Assembly: GCA_021732145.1 (NCBI GenBank)
Contig: JAKFVN010000006.1
Span: 1 to 64,000 of the forward strand
Direction of reading: 5' to 3'
Length of the DNA stretch: 64,000 nucleotides
Source of the DNA: Alphaproteobacteria bacterium
GTDB taxonomy: Bacteria > Pseudomonadota > Alphaproteobacteria > UBA9219 > RGZA01
Under the pieces are notes generated by a model that was not told where the DNA came from, ran no database searches, and saw only the letters and a program-made list of their open reading frames with translations. Within the stretch, counting starts at the first letter, position 1; every line of letters begins with the position of its first letter. The position numbers and the translations under genes were made by a program. Shown here one piece after another: positions 1,647 through 58,348 of this stretch.

Positions 1647-1780
1647 TCACCAAATAGCGGATGCATGACCCGCGCCTTCGAAACGCTTTATTAAAACGTG
1701 TGGCCTGTTTAGGCCTTAACAAACTGAAAAGCAAGGACAACCTTTTAGCCGTGATTGCATGCCTATTTAAGCCTTTTCAA

Positions 1781-1899
1781 AATCTCGCTGCGGCTAGGGA
1801 TTATGGATGTTTTCGAGAACCGGAGCGCAACGCACTTGTGGGTACGTGAGCACCGGAAGCGGAGAAAACGAACATAAGCTAACGCCGCAGACAGAGATT
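1781..1899. repeat. Long hairpin repeat element A, copy 1
   Basis: AATCTCgCTGCGGC...GCCGCAGacAGAGATT ends; conserved core CGAGAACCGGAGCGCA...GTACGTGAGCACCGGAAGCGGAGAAAAC shared with 20730-20849. Confidence 0.85.
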
Positions 1900-1909
1900 G
1901 TGACTAGGC

Positions 1910-2581
1910 TTATCCGCGCATCAGCTTTTCAAAACCTTCATCGGAAGGCTGTTGATTATCGCTGTCGCCGCCAAAACCTGAGGTCAAACCGCCTTGAGTT
2001 TCGCTGCTTGCTGCTGCGGCATCGGCCGCTGCCAATGCGGCTTGCTGTTCTTTTGGCAGATGCTTACGGCTTTTCGCAACGGCGGCATTCAAATCGGTTT
2101 GCTTGCACAGGCCAAGGAACACAGGATCACGCGGCTTGATGTTGCTCATGTTCCAGTGCGAACGGTCACGGATTTTTTCGATGGTGCTTTTGGTGGTGCC
2201 TATCAGGTTCACCAACTGGCCATCGGTCAATTCCGGATGGTTCTTCACCAGCCACGCAATTGCATCCGGCTTATCGCCGCGCTTGGTCACTGGCGTGTAG
2301 CGCGGGCCCTTTTGGCGGGTTGCCACTTCCGGCAGCTTGTTGACCTTCATGGAAATCTTTGCGCTTGGGTCTTTTTCGCAGCGTTCGATTTCTTCCTTGG
2401 TAATCTGGCCATTTAACACCGGGTTTAAGCCCACCATGCCGATGTTGACTTCGCCATCGGCAATCGCCTTCACTTCCAGCGGGTGCAATTCGCAGAATTC
2501 CGAAATCTGGTCAAAGCTCAACGCGGTATTTTCAACGAGCCAAACGGCAGTTGCCTTGGGCATAAGAAGATTGGTAGCCAT
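1910..2581 (-). CDS. DUF1013 family protein (TrcR-like cell cycle regulator)
   Basis: MATNLLMPKATAVWLVENTALSFDQISEFCELHPLEVKAIADGE... characteristic of the DUF1013 family; ATG at 2581 preferred over the longer ORF start at 2608. Confidence 0.85.
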   Translation of the reverse strand: MATNLLMPKATAVWLVENTALSFDQISEFCELHPLEVKAIADGEVNIGMVGLNPVLNGQITKEEIERCEKDPSAKISMKVNKLPEVATRQKGPRYTPVTKRGDKPDAIAWLVKNHPELTDGQLVNLIGTTKSTIEKIRDRSHWNMSNIKPRDPVFLGLCKQTDLNAAVAKSRKHLPKEQQAALAAADAAAASSETQGGLTSGFGGDSDNQQPSDEGFEKLMRG

Positions 2582-20590: not shown

Positions 20591-20729
20591 TTTCATGCAA
20601 ATAGCTGATATATAAGACTAATTTTTAGCGGCCTTTTTGCTTTACACCCTGCCCTCCAACCCTCTATAAACACGGCCATCCTTGCTCATGGCGGTGGTCG
20701 CTGTGGGCTATGGTTTGGCGGGATTTTTC

Positions 20730-20849
20730 AATCTCGCTGTAACTAAGGATTTTTAGTGTTCTTCGAGAACCGGAGCGCAGCGTACGTTTAAGTACGTGAG
20801 CACCGGAAGCGGAGAAAACGCTAAAAAGCCAACGTTACAGTTAGAGATT
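20730..20849. repeat. Long hairpin repeat element A, copy 2
   Basis: AATCTCgCTGTAAC...GTTACAGttAGAGATT with the same core as 1781-1899. Confidence 0.85.
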
Positions 20850-20885
20850 GCCCGCACTGACCTGAGCATCCATAGGGAATATAAA

Positions 20886-21335
20886 ATGCCTCTATATGAA
20901 ACCGTGTTTATTGCACGGCAGGATTTAACGCCTGCACAAGTCGAAACGCTTACGGGCGAAATCGAAACTACACTGAAAGCCCAAGGCGGCAAAGTGACCA
21001 AGACCGAACAATGGGGTCTTCGCACACTTGCTTACCGCATCAACAAAAACAAAAAAGGCCATTACACGCTCATCAATATTGATGCGCCTGCGGCGGCTAT
21101 CACCGAAATGGAACGCACCATGCGTATTCATGACGACGTAATGCGTTACATGACCATCCGTGTTGATGAGCATGAAGAAGGCCCATCGGCTATTCTTCGC
21201 CGCGCGAATGATGATGAACGCCCATCCGGTGGCTTTGGCGATCGTCCAAGCCGCGGTGGTGATCGTGGTGACAGAGGTGGTGACCGAGGCTTTCGTCCTC
21301 GCGCGCCACGTAGCGAAGAAGGAGACGCAGCATGA
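20886..21335 (+). CDS. rpsF: 30S ribosomal protein S6
   Basis: [49 protein letters not shown]. Confidence 0.97.
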
Positions 21336-22923: not shown

Positions 22924-22957
22924 GCAGTTTTATAAGTATTTTTTATAGGAACTTAGT

Positions 22958-23500
22958 ATGGCTATTTCAGTCCGCAAGCTCGCGCTTGCAACAGCAGCAG
23001 CACTTGCATTGTTTGCAATGTCATCCACAGAAGTCGCTGCACAAGCGACAGTGGCGCCCACGCAAATTAATACAGTTCCGAATACTCTGCCACCTGTAGA
23101 CCCAGCAACAAAGGCAGCAACGATTGCAAAGTTAAAAAGAGTGGTAACAGTTGCTGGTGACACCAAAGGACAAGAACTACCAGAAGCTTGCAACATTCGG
23201 ATAATCGCTTTTTCTCAAGCACTTCTCAAATACAGCAGAGATCCTGTACTTCAGCACGTTCTTATTAACGTAAGCGAAGATACACTTATGAATTATGCTC
23301 ATTTTGTTAATTGCACAGATAAGACTGACGCTAAAATTAGAGTTGTAAACTCTGCGGACGAAGATCGTTTGCGCACATTGATGGTTGCGAATGGCGTCAT
23401 TCCAAATACAGAGACGGCATATGGTCCTGCATACGGGCCACAACGACGCACTCCGCAAACTAAAGGTAGTCCTGCATTGAAAGATGCGCCAAAAAAATAG
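22958..23500 (+). CDS. Secreted hypothetical protein, paralog 1
   Basis: Signal-peptide-like N-terminus MAISVRKLALATAAALALFAMSSTEVAAQA; conserved tail DKTDAKIRVVNSADEDRLRTLMVANGVIPN. Confidence 0.7.
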   Translation: MAISVRKLALATAAALALFAMSSTEVAAQATVAPTQINTVPNTLPPVDPATKAATIAKLKRVVTVAGDTKGQELPEACNIRIIAFSQALLKYSRDPVLQHVLINVSEDTLMNYAHFVNCTDKTDAKIRVVNSADEDRLRTLMVANGVIPNTETAYGPAYGPQRRTPQTKGSPALKDAPKK

Positions 23501-23854
23501 CGCGCGTTTTTTCAAATAAATTTTCCATAACTATTTTTTTATAAAAAAAGTTTTCTGCACAAATTTTTTGCGGAAATATTTTGCATAAATATTTTGCTGG
23601 GTGATTTGCATTTTTCATGTGTAATTTTTTACTGGCCAAGTAATTCTGGACTCATTCAGTAGTAATTACTGTTGTCATGCCTTAAATGTAGCCAATTTGG
23701 TCATATATACTGGCTTGAAACTAATGAGTAATGAAAACAGTAAAGAATCCAATGACTTGGATATTTACTTTTCTATGGCAGTAATCAAGTCAAATAGTTA
23801 CTATTTACAGGCCTAAATAAAGACAAAAACGCCTTTTGTGGCTGGGAGTCTATT

Positions 23855-24406
23855 ATGTCAGTTTCCATTCGTGATGTCGCGCTCGCAACAGCAGCTGCAC
23901 TTGCATTGTTTGCAATGTCATCAACAGAAGTCGCTGCGCAAACAACAGTAGCGCCCACACACATTAATGCAATTCCAAACGGCTTACCGCCAGCTTTCAA
24001 AGATCAAGCAGCTCAAGACGCTTATAACGCAAAAATGCGCCGTGTTATTACCTTGGCATCAACACACCCTACTGGTGAAGTTTCTGAATTAAGCCGCGCT
24101 AGAGTTATTGGTTTTGTAGAAGCACTTAAAAAGTACAATAGAGACCCTGTATTGCAGCGCCTGCTTATTGTGCTCCCAGAAGATACGCTGAATAACTACG
24201 CACGGTTTGTCAGTGGCGTTGATAAAACAGATGCTAAGATAAGAGTTGTTAACTCAGCGGATGAAGATCGTTTCCGCACATTGATGGTTGCAAATGATGT
24301 TATTCCAAATAGCCCAACGGCATACGGCCCTGCATACCTGCCAGAACGACGTACATCGAGCCTTGAAGATCGCGCTGGCGCGACGCTTGCAGAAAACAAA
24401 AGATAA
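23855..24406 (+). CDS. Secreted hypothetical protein, paralog 2
   Basis: MSVSIRDVALATAAALALFAMSSTEVAAQT; tail DKTDAKIRVVNSADEDRFRTLMVANDVIPN. Confidence 0.7.
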   Translation: MSVSIRDVALATAAALALFAMSSTEVAAQTTVAPTHINAIPNGLPPAFKDQAAQDAYNAKMRRVITLASTHPTGEVSELSRARVIGFVEALKKYNRDPVLQRLLIVLPEDTLNNYARFVSGVDKTDAKIRVVNSADEDRFRTLMVANDVIPNSPTAYGPAYLPERRTSSLEDRAGATLAENKR

Positions 24407-33500: not shown

Positions 33501-33718
33501 AACTTGCCAAAAAACATCTGCGCGTTGGAAATCTTTACATCAACCGCTCCATCATCGGCGCGGTTGTGGGCAGCCAGCCCTTTGGCGGTGATGCGTTATC
33601 GGGCACAGGGCCAAAAGCTGGCGGGCCCAACTACCTCATGCGCTTTGCAGCCGAACGCGCGATTACGCAAAACCTTGCAGCCGCTGGCGGCGATGTGAAT
33701 TTGCTGAAGCTGGATTAA
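30581..33718 (+). CDS. putA: Bifunctional proline dehydrogenase / delta-1-pyrroline-5-carboxylate dehydrogenase
   Basis: 1045 aa; PRODH region (VRLVKGAYWDTEIKRAQ) plus ALDH region (FACIAPWNFPLAIFGGQI, GQRCSAARLLVLQ). Confidence 0.96.
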   Translation: MSRMPLDNNTTLEDLRRRITQLTLADEESCVRALSPLSRLSIQDERTVSAQAKEWLTYLRDAAQKAEPIEKLIHRFRLTDKEGVALMALAEALPRVPDDLTADALIADKLSQGNWREYLNQYPDMISKMAWLGLSLGKDVSSSNPLSSWVNKISQHGLREAVRMGMKRLGEHFVLGTTIENALKNSLGQNSGKKKHALERYSFDMLGEAAHTSIDAERYFNAYKHAIEVLAGYHSAHKIGGNAVHGPSISVKLSALHPRYEWAQHERVLNEITPRLMDLVEIAAHHNIGLTIDAEEAERLELSLAIIEQVLASPHLKNYSGFGVAVQAYQKRAPAVLDWLYEQAQLQGVKITVRLVKGAYWDTEIKRAQERGLTNYPVYTRKEATDIAYLACAKKLLGWRDVIFPQFGTHNLRTVLSIRAMAGSERDYEIQRLHGMGEDLHARMLEEGVPSCVYAPVGPHKELLSYLVRRLLENSANTSFVNQLHQGTMDVDALTADPLQKWEDADVKPHPAIPLPQHIFGAERMNSSGLNLHDSSVTAKTSAMLKNAKTQVWQAFPVIDGKKQKDNLAREMNSPANSYQKIGECVDAIPLHVNAAMQSLDAAFPAWSAKPVSERCIPIERLAHKLEENRDELMALLCYEGGKTIADAIGEIRETVDYCRYYAARAREVFGSPTHLRGISGESNELRIHGRGVFACIAPWNFPLAIFGGQIIGALLAGNTVVAKPAEQTPLVAAKFIDLMLESGVPENVIALLPGYSDVGAQIINHPLLAGVAFTGSTPTARAINRALAAKDAPIIPFIAETGGINALIADSSALPEQIVDDVMLSAFRSAGQRCSAARLLVLQDSIADDVIAMLKGALLELRVDDPMHLCADVGPVIDQHAKEMLEAHERTLKGSAKLIGSARATEAVNMGHFILPQAWEIPTIASLDKEVFGPILHVVRFKTGELVQTFNAINMLGYGLTGGIHSRIDTVIELAKKHLRVGNLYINRSIIGAVVGSQPFGGDALSGTGPKAGGPNYLMRFAAERAITQNLAAAGGDVNLLKLD

Positions 33719-33723
33719 AAAAC

Positions 33724-33770
33724 TGGCGACCCCGATACGATTTGAACGTACGACCTATTGCTTAGAAGGC
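33724..33770 (-). repeat. 47-bp copy of the tRNA-Arg 3' portion (att-like direct repeat)
   Basis: TGGCGACCCCGATACGATTTGAACGTACGACCTATTGCTTAGAAGGC, identical to 34825-34871. Confidence 0.95.
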
Positions 33771-33987
33771 CCAGTACTTATTAAGTAAATCAAATGGCTT
33801 TCAAACTATTTCACGATATGTTCATGCAAAAATTGTCATTTTAAATCAAAGGGTATTTCTTAAAGTTTGAAACCTCCCCACTGGTAGGCGCTAATACTTA
33901 TGGCGATTCATAGCTATTTAGACCAAATCACCATTTGATATTAATTTATTGTTAGGCTAATTTTAGCATAATCAAGGAGTATGATGC

Positions 33988-34368
33988 ATGGCACGCAAAA
34001 ATCTTCACTGGATAGGCTCTTCAAAGAAAGACTTGAAGAAAGAGAGTGATGACGTGAAAAGACAAGTGGGCTATGCGCTATTACTCGCGCAAGAAGGCGA
34101 TAAGTCAGCGGTAGCATGTCCGTTGACCGGCTTTAAAGGCGCTGGAGTTTTAGAAGTTGTTGTTGACGATGCGGGGGATACTTATCGTGCGGTTTATACA
34201 GTGAAATTTGCTAAAGCGGTTTATGCACTCCACTTCTTTAAAAAGAAGTCCAAGAAAGGCATTAAAACCCCTCAGCCAGATATTGAATTGATTAAACAAA
34301 GACTGAAGGAAGCTGAAAATCACTACACAACTAACTACATCAACAACAAACAGGCGATGGAGGCTTAA
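33988..34368 (+). CDS. RelE/HigB-like toxin (phage Gp49-like family)
   Basis: SSKKDLKKESDDVKRQVGYALLLAQEGDKS...LEVVVDDAGDTYRAVYTVKFAKAVYALHFFKKKSKKGIKTP. Confidence 0.88.
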   Translation: MARKNLHWIGSSKKDLKKESDDVKRQVGYALLLAQEGDKSAVACPLTGFKGAGVLEVVVDDAGDTYRAVYTVKFAKAVYALHFFKKKSKKGIKTPQPDIELIKQRLKEAENHYTTNYINNKQAMEA

Positions 34369-34369
34369 A

Positions 34370-34702
34370 ATGGCTAGAAAAAGAAAAAACACAGTTAGCG
34401 ATGCCGTCACCGATGTATTTGCAGACCTCGGCATTCAATTAACTCAAGAAGATTACATAAAGATTGGTTTAGCCAGAGCTATCAATAATAAGATTGTTGA
34501 TAAAGGGCTAACGCAACAACAGGCTGCCAAACTCATGAAAATTGATCAGCCAAAAGTATCCGCAATACTAAGAGGAAAACTAAAAGATTTCTCAACAGAT
34601 AGATTGATGTCTTTTATTACTAATCTTGGTAGTGATCTTGAGATAAAAATTCATAGACGGCAAAAAGGAATTGGCACTGTTAAAATAAAAGAATGTGCTT
34701 AA
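34370..34702 (+). CDS. XRE-family antitoxin (HigA-like)
   Basis: NKIVDKGLTQQQAAKLMKIDQPKVSAILRGKLKDFSTDRLMSFITNLGSDLEIKI; adjacent to the toxin gene. Confidence 0.88.
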   Translation: MARKRKNTVSDAVTDVFADLGIQLTQEDYIKIGLARAINNKIVDKGLTQQQAAKLMKIDQPKVSAILRGKLKDFSTDRLMSFITNLGSDLEIKIHRRQKGIGTVKIKECA

Positions 34703-34713
34703 TACTTAAGGAA

Positions 34714-34748
34714 AAGGGTATAAGCAATTTCATTGCTTATACCCTTTC
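34714..34748. terminator. Strong stem-loop downstream of the TA pair
   Basis: AAAGGGTATAAGCAA-tttca-TTGCTTATACCCTTT, 15-bp perfect stem flanked by A and T tracts. Confidence 0.8.
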
Positions 34749-34824
34749 TAATTAATCGTCTACTTGTGTCTTTTATAGAAAGTTTGAAGGGTTTTTAAAA
34801 CACCTTCTAACTCATTGAAAAGAA

Positions 34825-34901
34825 TGGCGACCCCGATACGATTTGAACGTACGACCTATTGCTTAGAAGGCAATTGCTCTATCCAGCTGAGCTACGGGGT
34901 C
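34825..34901 (-). tRNA. tRNA-Arg (TCT)
   Basis: GACCCCGTAGCTCAGCTGGATAGAGCAATTGCCTTCTAAGCAATAGGTCGTACGTTCAAATCGTATCGGGGTCGCCA. Confidence 0.95.
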
Positions 34902-43162: not shown

Positions 43163-43312
43163 AGAAATGGTGACCCCGATGGGATTTGAACCTCATGCGG
43201 AGCATGGATAGGTTATGGGTTCAACACCCGCAACCCCAGAAATGGTGACCCCGATGGGATTTGAACCTCATGCGGAGCATGGATAGGTTATGGGTTCAAC
43301 ACCCGCAACCCC
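43163..43312 (-). repeat. Two exact 75-bp tandem units, each containing a copy of the tRNA-Lys 3' end including CCA
   Basis: AGAAATGGTGACCCCGATGGGATTTGAACC... at 43163 and 43238; a third start at 43313 runs into the intact tRNA-Lys. Confidence 0.95.
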
Positions 43313-43317
43313 AGAAA

Positions 43318-43393
43318 TGGTGACCCCGATGGGATTTGAACCCATGACCACTCGATTAAAAGTCGCGTGCTCTACCAGCTGAGCTACAGGGTC
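43318..43393 (-). tRNA. tRNA-Lys (TTT)
   Basis: GACCCTGTAGCTCAGCTGGTAGAGCACGCGACTTTTAATCGAGTGGTCATGGGTTCAAATCCCATCGGGGTCACCA. Confidence 0.95.
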
Positions 43394-56983: not shown

Positions 56984-58348
56984 ATGCGTAAAACAAGCGA
57001 AAAACAAAAAAAACAGCACGATGTCATCATCGCGGGCGGCGGCCTTGCGGGGCTTGTCATGGCAGCGCGGCTTGGCAGCGCCGGGCTTGACGTAGCGGTG
57101 GTTGAACGCATTGCCCAGGCCAACATGACCAGCACCGCCTTTGATGGCCGCTCCACCGCCATTGCCTATGGCTCCGCCAGAATTCTCGATGCATGCGGTG
57201 TGTGGAATAAAATTAAAGATACCACCTGTCCGATTGATGATATTCGCGTCGCCGACCAACGCAGCGCCCTGACACTGGATTTCGAAAGTAAGGACGTATT
57301 TTTATGCGATGCCTCTGCGCCAAATGGCGCAACCGGCCCTGCTAAGGACGTATTTTTATGCGATGCCTCTGCGCCAAATGGCGCAACCGGCCCTGCTAAG
57401 GACGTATTTTTATGCGATGCCTCTGCGCCAAATGGCGCAACCGGCCCTGCTGGGGGCGATAAGGCTTTTGGCTATATTGTTGAGAACACGGTTTTCAGAA
57501 CCGCGTTGTTTGAGCGGTTGGCCGAACTAAACAACGTAACGCTCGCCTGCCCAGTTGCCATACAAGCTATTCATTATGAAGACGATGCCATAACGCTGGC
57601 TTTAGATGATAATTCAACGCTGCGCGCCAGGCTGCTGATTGCGGCGGACGGCAAAAAATCATTCTGCCGCGAGCATGCGGGCATACAAGCGCGCCATTGG
57701 TCATATAACGAAACCGCGCTGGTGGTCACGATTAAGCATACCATGCCGCATCATAATCTGGCGCTGGAATACTTTTACCCCGGCGGGCCATTCGCTGTGT
57801 TACCGATGAGCGATAACCGATCCAGCATCGTATGGACTGAAAAGCCTGATACCGCCGCAGCATTGCACACAATGCCGGAAGACGAGTTTATTGGGCTATT
57901 GAAAGAACGTGGCTGCGAAAACCTTGGCGGCATTTCGCTGGCAACACCGCGCCAGCAATACCCGCTGCGCTTTATGCTGGCAGATAGTTTGCACGCCCCA
58001 CGCCTTGCCTTGATTGGCGAAGCCGCGCACAGCATGCACCCCGTCGCGGGCCAAGGATTCAATCTAACTGTACGCGACATTGGCGTATTGGGCGATTTGA
58101 TTGAAATGCGTTTCAAAACCGATGGTGATATTGGCGCGGATGAATTGCTGCAACGCTATGATGCTGGGCGGCAGCTTGACCACTTCACCTTCATGACTGC
58201 AACCGATGTACTGGTAAAATTATTCTCAAATAATGTCCTTCCCTTGCGCCTTATCCGCCGCTTTGGCTTAGCGTTGATTGAGAAAATTCCGCCTGCAAAA
58301 AAATTCTTCTCGCGCATGGCGATGGGCTTGATCACCAGCGGTAAATAA
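56984..58348 (+). CDS. UbiH/VisC-like FAD-dependent ubiquinone biosynthesis hydroxylase with internal 18-aa triplication
   Basis: HDVIIAGGGLAGLVMAARLGSAGLDVAVVE; LIGEAAHSMHPVAGQGFNLTVRDIGVL. Confidence 0.92.
   Translation: MRKTSEKQKKQHDVIIAGGGLAGLVMAARLGSAGLDVAVVERIAQANMTSTAFDGRSTAIAYGSARILDACGVWNKIKDTTCPIDDIRVADQRSALTLDFESKDVFLCDASAPNGATGPAKDVFLCDASAPNGATGPAKDVFLCDASAPNGATGPAGGDKAFGYIVENTVFRTALFERLAELNNVTLACPVAIQAIHYEDDAITLALDDNSTLRARLLIAADGKKSFCREHAGIQARHWSYNETALVVTIKHTMPHHNLALEYFYPGGPFAVLPMSDNRSSIVWTEKPDTAAALHTMPEDEFIGLLKERGCENLGGISLATPRQQYPLRFMLADSLHAPRLALIGEAAHSMHPVAGQGFNLTVRDIGVLGDLIEMRFKTDGDIGADELLQRYDAGRQLDHFTFMTATDVLVKLFSNNVLPLRLIRRFGLALIEKIPPAKKFFSRMAMGLITSGK
57290..57451 (+). repeat. 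Three exact 54-bp tandem repeats inside the ubiH-like CDS (repeat family B)
   Basis: Starts 57290, 57344, 57398; each encodes KDVFLCDASAPNGATGPA and contains TGCGCC-aaat-GGCGCA. Confidence 0.97.

Follow-up and report, generated by a model that had tools for sequence, protein, structure and literature searches.

The palindromic repeats ERIC, RPE and CIR have been reviewed together (PMC2229807), and it is with these, and with several repeat families of the rhizobial and Brucella literature, that the element analysed here is best compared. RPE are alphaproteobacterial palindromes of 100-150 nt (PMC2229807), and the same review describes the CcrM-associated intergenic repeats (CIR; Chen and Shapiro 2003) as alphaproteobacterial elements of about 110 bp that carry GANTC sites and consist of two hairpins with a linker. 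PMC10800456 and PMC2267715 present Bru-RS1 and Bru-RS2 (Halling and Bricker 1994) as palindromic dispersed repeats of Brucella, 103-106 bp long and lying downstream of genes; Bru-RS is also described in PMC3163539 and PMC2266754. RIME, Sm and the A/B/C repeats are introduced in PMC2573895 as rhizobial intergenic palindromes, with their function given there as unknown.

The window (by which we mean the whole stretch of 64,000 nucleotides that was analysed) contains two copies of a palindromic repeat, one of them in the leader of rpsF. Its closest known counterparts are ERIC, Bru-RS, CIR and RIME, the last three of which were compared by description only. Like ERIC, the element is long (about 130 nt), palindromic, intergenic and dispersed; the centre of ERIC has a similar tip (AGC-UUAC...GUAA-GUGA), and the ERIC copy at ybhI-ybhJ is also placed at a stop codon. 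The two differ in their arms and in host class, and the ERIC tip pattern was found neither in the window's genome nor in any alphaproteobacterium listed in the sample. Membership of ERIC, with its 127-bp consensus, was rejected, since only the tip motif is similar and the two asymmetries of strand and orientation reported below are both missing in ERIC. The ERIC type suggested at first is no more than an analogy, real ERIC copies having neither asymmetry in the same analysis. RPE often lie in frame within genes, whereas the present element falls inside a predicted ORF in only 3 of 152 contexts.

By description, Bru-RS shares both the host branch and the palindromic dispersed form of our element, and RIME, Sm and the A/B/C repeats resemble it as rhizobial intergenic palindromes. 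A likeness to CIR, again from its description, lies in the arms, in which phased GANTC is enriched 3.6-fold (0.50 per 100 nt in the repeat versus 0.14 in the flanks, phased at -36, -21 and -40); CIR consists of two stem-loops and a linker, whereas the present element is a single long hairpin. It is quite possible that some of Bru-RS, CIR and RIME are branches of the present family. The family is not one already catalogued in Rfam, where no match reached the gathering score and nothing relevant appeared at E<10 for the rpsF copy, and a literature search for the letters of its core found no occurrence. We put at roughly two in three the probability that the repeat represents a non-autonomous, mobile palindromic (MITE-like) family of the Alphaproteobacteria, the rpsF copy being a lineage-specific insertion into a native leader.

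The repeat at rpsF and its family

Both copies that the first-pass annotation had placed at 20730-20849 and about 1779-1900 are present, and they are 82% identical over 89 nt. The compensatory stem swaps that it had noted between them were confirmed, CTGCGGC/GCCGCAG standing against CTGTAAC/GTTACAG and TTATG/CATAA against TTTTTAG/CTAAAAA, as was the unchanged outer stem AATCTC/GAGATT. The hairpin of ~120 nt exists too, although its true extent, as matched by covariance model R1, is slightly longer (Table 1).

Table 1. Coordinates of the repeat copies, their parts and the rpsF leader in the window.
Feature	Position	Strand	Evidence or remark
Repeat copy 1, tRNA-Met on one side, next gene on the other	1769..1910	+	R1 match, E 1.2e-26
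Native rpsF leader, 5' half	20672..20717	+	Aligned with the leaders of repeat-free relatives (L157, L158)
Repeat copy 2, full extent including outer stem GCGGG/CCCGC	20718..20860	+	R1 match, E 1.5e-28; fold
5' arm of copy 2, AATCTCGCTGTAACTAAGGATTTTTAGTGTTCTTC	20730..20764	+	Sequence, fold, copy alignment
Conserved core, GAGAACCGGAGCGCAGCGTACGTTTAAGTACGTGAGCACCGGAAGCGGAG	20765..20814	+	Asymmetric internal loops and CCGG/CCGG helix
Terminal hairpin, GCGTAC-GTTTAA-GTACGT	20780..20797	+	Pairing in 43-copy alignment
3' arm of copy 2, ending CTAAAAAGCCAACGTTACAGTTAGAGATT	20815..20849	+	Sequence, fold, copy alignment
Native rpsF leader, 3' half, CTGAGCATCCATAGGGAATATAA	20861..20885	+	Common to relatives without the repeat
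rpsF (ribosomal protein S6)	20886..21335	+	Single match in each of 15 genomes

In the window's genome (2.09 Mb in 54 contigs) blastn found about 21 copies, which in alignment share the core GAGAACCGGAGCGCAGCGTAC-N4-7-GTACGTGAGCACCGGAAGCGCAGAA. The almost invariant core of the family as a whole is GAGAACCGGAGCGCAGCGTAC-N-GTACGTGAGCACCGGAAGCGCAG; its stems are interchangeable, and among the aligned copies several sequence classes of arm can be told apart, all of them still complementary. The core of copy 2 is near-invariant in 43 diverse copies and in no fewer than 117 stretches from named alphaproteobacterial genera, which include Phyllobacterium, Mesorhizobium, Brucella/Ochrobactrum, Devosia, Agrobacterium, Sphingobium and Stappia. 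Model R1 recovered 19 to 80 copies in each of six named alphaproteobacterial genomes (Phyllobacterium, Mesorhizobium, Brucella/Ochrobactrum, Devosia and Sphingobium), and B. tritici has 26 copies with the present core. Distribution is patchy, with the family present in 17 of 59 relatives and R1 matches in 28 of 289 genomes across the class. Other proteobacterial groups gave weak R1 matches in which the stems differ and the tip AGCGCAGCRTAC-N-GTAYGTGAGCA is kept. The repeat is found on large secondary replicons; there was no match to it in phages, and no viral relatives turned up for a neighbouring protein. Separately, in several genomes of one genus outside the Alphaproteobacteria a hairpin sharing this tip is present in single copy (family f173, L226-L231), apparently at one orthologous site between two genes.

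At rpsF, which has rpsR-like and rplI-like genes after it, the end of the repeat as first delimited lies 36 nt before the ATG, the gap given by the first-pass annotation, which had gone on to suggest a regulatory role in the leader. A highly stable, covarying hairpin on the sense strand at that distance is what would be expected of a cis-regulatory ribosomal-protein leader that binds S6/S18 or controls translation. Against this, the two relatives from the same genus (G001 and G002; the window's genome is G000) keep the flanking leader without the hairpin, some 20 further copies adjoin unrelated genes and the repeat matches no Rfam leader. The regulator reading was dropped in view of the repeat-free sites in these relatives, and we consider it extremely improbable; any effect of so long a hairpin on rpsF would be incidental.

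The leader is uninterrupted in both G001 and G002 and is split by the repeat in G000, which argues that the insertion is lineage-specific; among the other rpsF leaders listed, too, the repeat was not seen. Judged from these alignments, the rpsF copy is a recent, lineage-specific insertion into the native leader. The heptamer AATCTCG stands beside the insertion point in G002, which leaves two readings: the exact left boundary is uncertain, or a copy once present in G002 was deleted and left a short scar.

Covariation and strand preference of the fold

Folding of 20720-20860 as plus-strand RNA gave -60 kcal/mol against -34 +/- 3.6 for dinucleotide shuffles (z -7.3), with 0 of 200 shuffles as good. 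Across the 43 diverse copies, 14 of the 23 consensus pairs are changed on both sides. Paired cells amount to 91%, compared with 76% after shuffling and 29-44% when the partner strand is slid by 1-3 columns, and there are 145 doubly changed cells where shuffles give 49. None of 500 shuffles reached the observed paired cells, doubly changed cells, pair types or covariation score; the fifth measure, the number of doubly changed pairs, was reached by 4 of 500. Selection on the folded structure, as originally proposed, is therefore supported by covariation above all shuffles on four of five measures, together with a strand-specific tolerance of G.U pairs. The first pair of the terminal hairpin is a conserved G.U (36 GU, 5 AU, 2 GC).

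In some copies GGAAGC within the core is replaced by a two-hairpin module, for example CCCGCTTCGCGGG-TTCTATATAATG-TCCTGCAAAGCAGGA (L020, L021, L026, L027), and a further variant with this module occurs in G001 (L205). A TATAAT-like link connects its two covarying hairpins, and in four module copies from the window's own genome complementarity is again preserved in each hairpin though the letters vary.

Because covariation alone cannot separate an RNA from a DNA palindrome, we counted wobbles, aligning the arms with a scoring that is equal for all mismatches; A.C on the plus (core) strand is the same wobble as G.T on the opposite strand. Stem mismatches on the plus strand were G.U rather than A.C in 267 versus 71 (versus 65 in the comparison with ERIC) and in 45 versus 13 cells. 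The excess is found in all five sequence classes (150:19, 26:9, 20:8, 13:4 and 11:2 cells), and after shared sites were collapsed 95 copies had more G.U than A.C against 18 with the opposite. The ERIC control of 30 loci gave 57 versus 56 cells, and 8 versus 11 copies. An excess of G.U on the plus strand that is not seen in ERIC argues for selection on the plus strand in folded, single-stranded form, and on these counts only this one strand appears to be under selection to fold, whether as RNA or as single-stranded DNA. Single-stranded DNA has an excess of C-to-T change; since the orientation data below would put the minus sequence on the exposed strands, this excess would be expected to act against the G.U bias.

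The arms of a palindrome can correct each other through replication errors, and complementarity might in principle be maintained in this way, by hairpin-templated quasipalindrome correction and without any selection on the fold. Such a neutral palindrome would also be consistent with an interior deletion seen at one orthologous site (see below). Templated correction, however, gives no bias of G.U over A.C, a bias that the present element has and ERIC lacks, and it leaves the conserved asymmetric loops of the core unaccounted for, making this account very unlikely. On our preferred reading of a mobile, MITE-like family, the folded single-stranded plus strand (GAGAACCGG..., as RNA or single-stranded DNA) would be recognised by a factor, most likely one that mobilises or processes the element.

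Placement at stop codons and relative to replication

Gene context was obtained with a purpose-written ORF caller, and shared sites were collapsed to give 137 independent contexts. In 91 of these an antisense gene has its end at the element's 3' end, and in 82 the stop codon lies no more than 60 nt from the edge of the core; for co-oriented genes that finish at the 5' end the figures are 49 contexts, 20 of them within 65 nt. Between tandem genes the element is antisense in 51 cases and sense in 12 (p 7e-7), whereas ERIC, over its 30 loci, divides 10 to 10 without bias. The 3' junction is fixed and the 5' distance more variable, in convergent pairs as well (31 versus 15 of 35). In rhizobial copies the flanking TNA is itself the stop codon, and in one clean case (L289) TGA stands on both flanks: the stop codon of the gene upstream, which is the first of the two, has itself been duplicated. 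On annotated plasmids the arrangement holds in 6 of 11 copies, two of these being the same site in related plasmids.

Orientation was also compared with replication. On contig 1 of genome G010 all copies between 0.25 and 1.11 Mb are on the minus strand and all others on the plus strand; GC skew switches sign near 0.2 and 0.9 Mb, and 15 of the 16 copies therefore agree with the skew. Of 104 loci of 8 kb from other genera, 68 have a negative skew when read along the plus strand (p 0.002), as do 38 of 53 in convergent or divergent contexts, where gene effects balance. The orientation of copies is thus probably linked to the replication strand, gene and fork effects being only partly separated here.

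So strong a placement and orientation at stop codons might instead mark a useful 3'-end element, through whose plus-strand RNA antisense or read-through transcription would be halted or processed at gene ends, and whose copies selection would keep there. A copy that separates the rplL stop codon from the terminator of that gene (L022), at a site common to G002, fits this idea, as does a report, cited in PMC2229807, that ERIC changes mRNA stability depending on its orientation (De Gregorio 2005). Yet turnover is high, most copies of the main class not being common to species of the genus, and no U-tract was noted after the hairpin, so that we regard this explanation as unlikely. If the family is instead mobile and MITE-like, copies may last mainly where they are least harmful, at stop codons with the plus strand antisense to the preceding gene, and those that persist would have the plus strand kept off the lagging-strand template. 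Their orientation could arise from the chemistry of insertion, or from loss of copies that expose the plus-strand fold in mRNA or in the lagging-strand template.

Mobility and candidate machinery

The view of the first-pass annotation that this may be a palindromic mobile repeat is supported, both by the 21 copies in the genome and by differences in presence and absence within the genus. At the site of copy 1 the element is absent in G002, and G001 has a two-hairpin variant instead; G002 also lacks the element at the L009, L011 and L012 sites, and only three of the G002 copies examined sit at sites common to G000. At the L013 site, G002 (L196) retains a residual mini-hairpin of the outer arms, CTACGG-TTTATG-CCGTAG, the apparent product of deleting the centre of the palindrome.

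Ends were set by class-specific end motifs, automatic outward extension of the arms being too permissive. In rhizobial classes I and IIa, 15 of 45 copies have identical 3-bp flanks, compared with 5.8 expected by re-pairing; nearly all of the agreeing flanks are TNA, and the target-site duplication is clear in a minority of copies. The combination of terminal inverted repeats with a short TNA duplication, as in a MITE with an IS5-type target, is thus found in these two classes. A DDE transposase accounts for these 3-bp duplications, and for the long inverted ends, more readily than does an RNA-mediated element, a bacterial analogue of SINEs, in which folded plus-strand RNA would be copied into DNA with priming at or near stop codons. 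In that scheme the 3' junction and the orientation would both be fixed; it is in keeping with the strand-specific selection on the fold, with the 3' junction at antisense stop codons, convergent pairs included, and with the looser 5' distance; all told, we think it quite unlikely.

Searches for machinery that could act on the MITE-like element gave no match to the Y1 (RAYT-type) transposase PF01797 in the window's genome, with five control genomes positive, and membership of the REP/RAYT group was dropped because of this absence. DDE_Tnp_1_2 (PF13586) was likewise not found in the window's genome, nor did the Phyllobacterium genome yield a partner IS that shares the class I end pattern; a candidate drawn there from an inverted pair of ends turned out to be two copies of the element and no IS. 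Conservation is higher in the core than at the ends, an uncommon pattern for a MITE. The family goes beyond an ordinary MITE or ERIC in three respects: a G.U-tolerant single strand, a 3' end at an antisense stop codon and an orientation related to the replication strand.

The way in which ERIC, Bru-RS, RIME and other bacterial palindromic repeats move is, to our knowledge, not known, and the near-invariant core, the strand-specific selection on the fold and the fixed relation to stop codons and replication provide three measurable handles on mechanism. The covariance model also allows annotation of the family where it may be mistaken for sRNAs or riboswitches. A broader and doubtful proposal is that mobile hairpins of this strand-specific kind extend across orders, the folded plus strand (RNA or single-stranded DNA) being the substrate of transposition and insertion taking place at stop codons in fixed orientation. 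If this were true, the related tips (AGC-NUAC...GUAN-GUGA) in other proteobacteria and in ERIC would mark one ancient superfamily, moved by undescribed machinery.

Other repeats were observed in the window. The 3' end of the adjoining tRNA gene has given rise to tandem 75-nt copies at 43163-43387, and similar tRNA-end tandem repeats occur close to tRNA-Met in relatives (L204, L205). Two 54-nt tRNA-end copies about 1.1 kb apart (33717-34871), 96% identical, resemble the ends of a small integrated element. Three tandem 54-nt repeats at 57289-57458 each have an ATG at the same position in the unit, and 22954-24406 encodes two adjoining paralogous small secreted-looking proteins whose DNA is 78-82% identical in two blocks.
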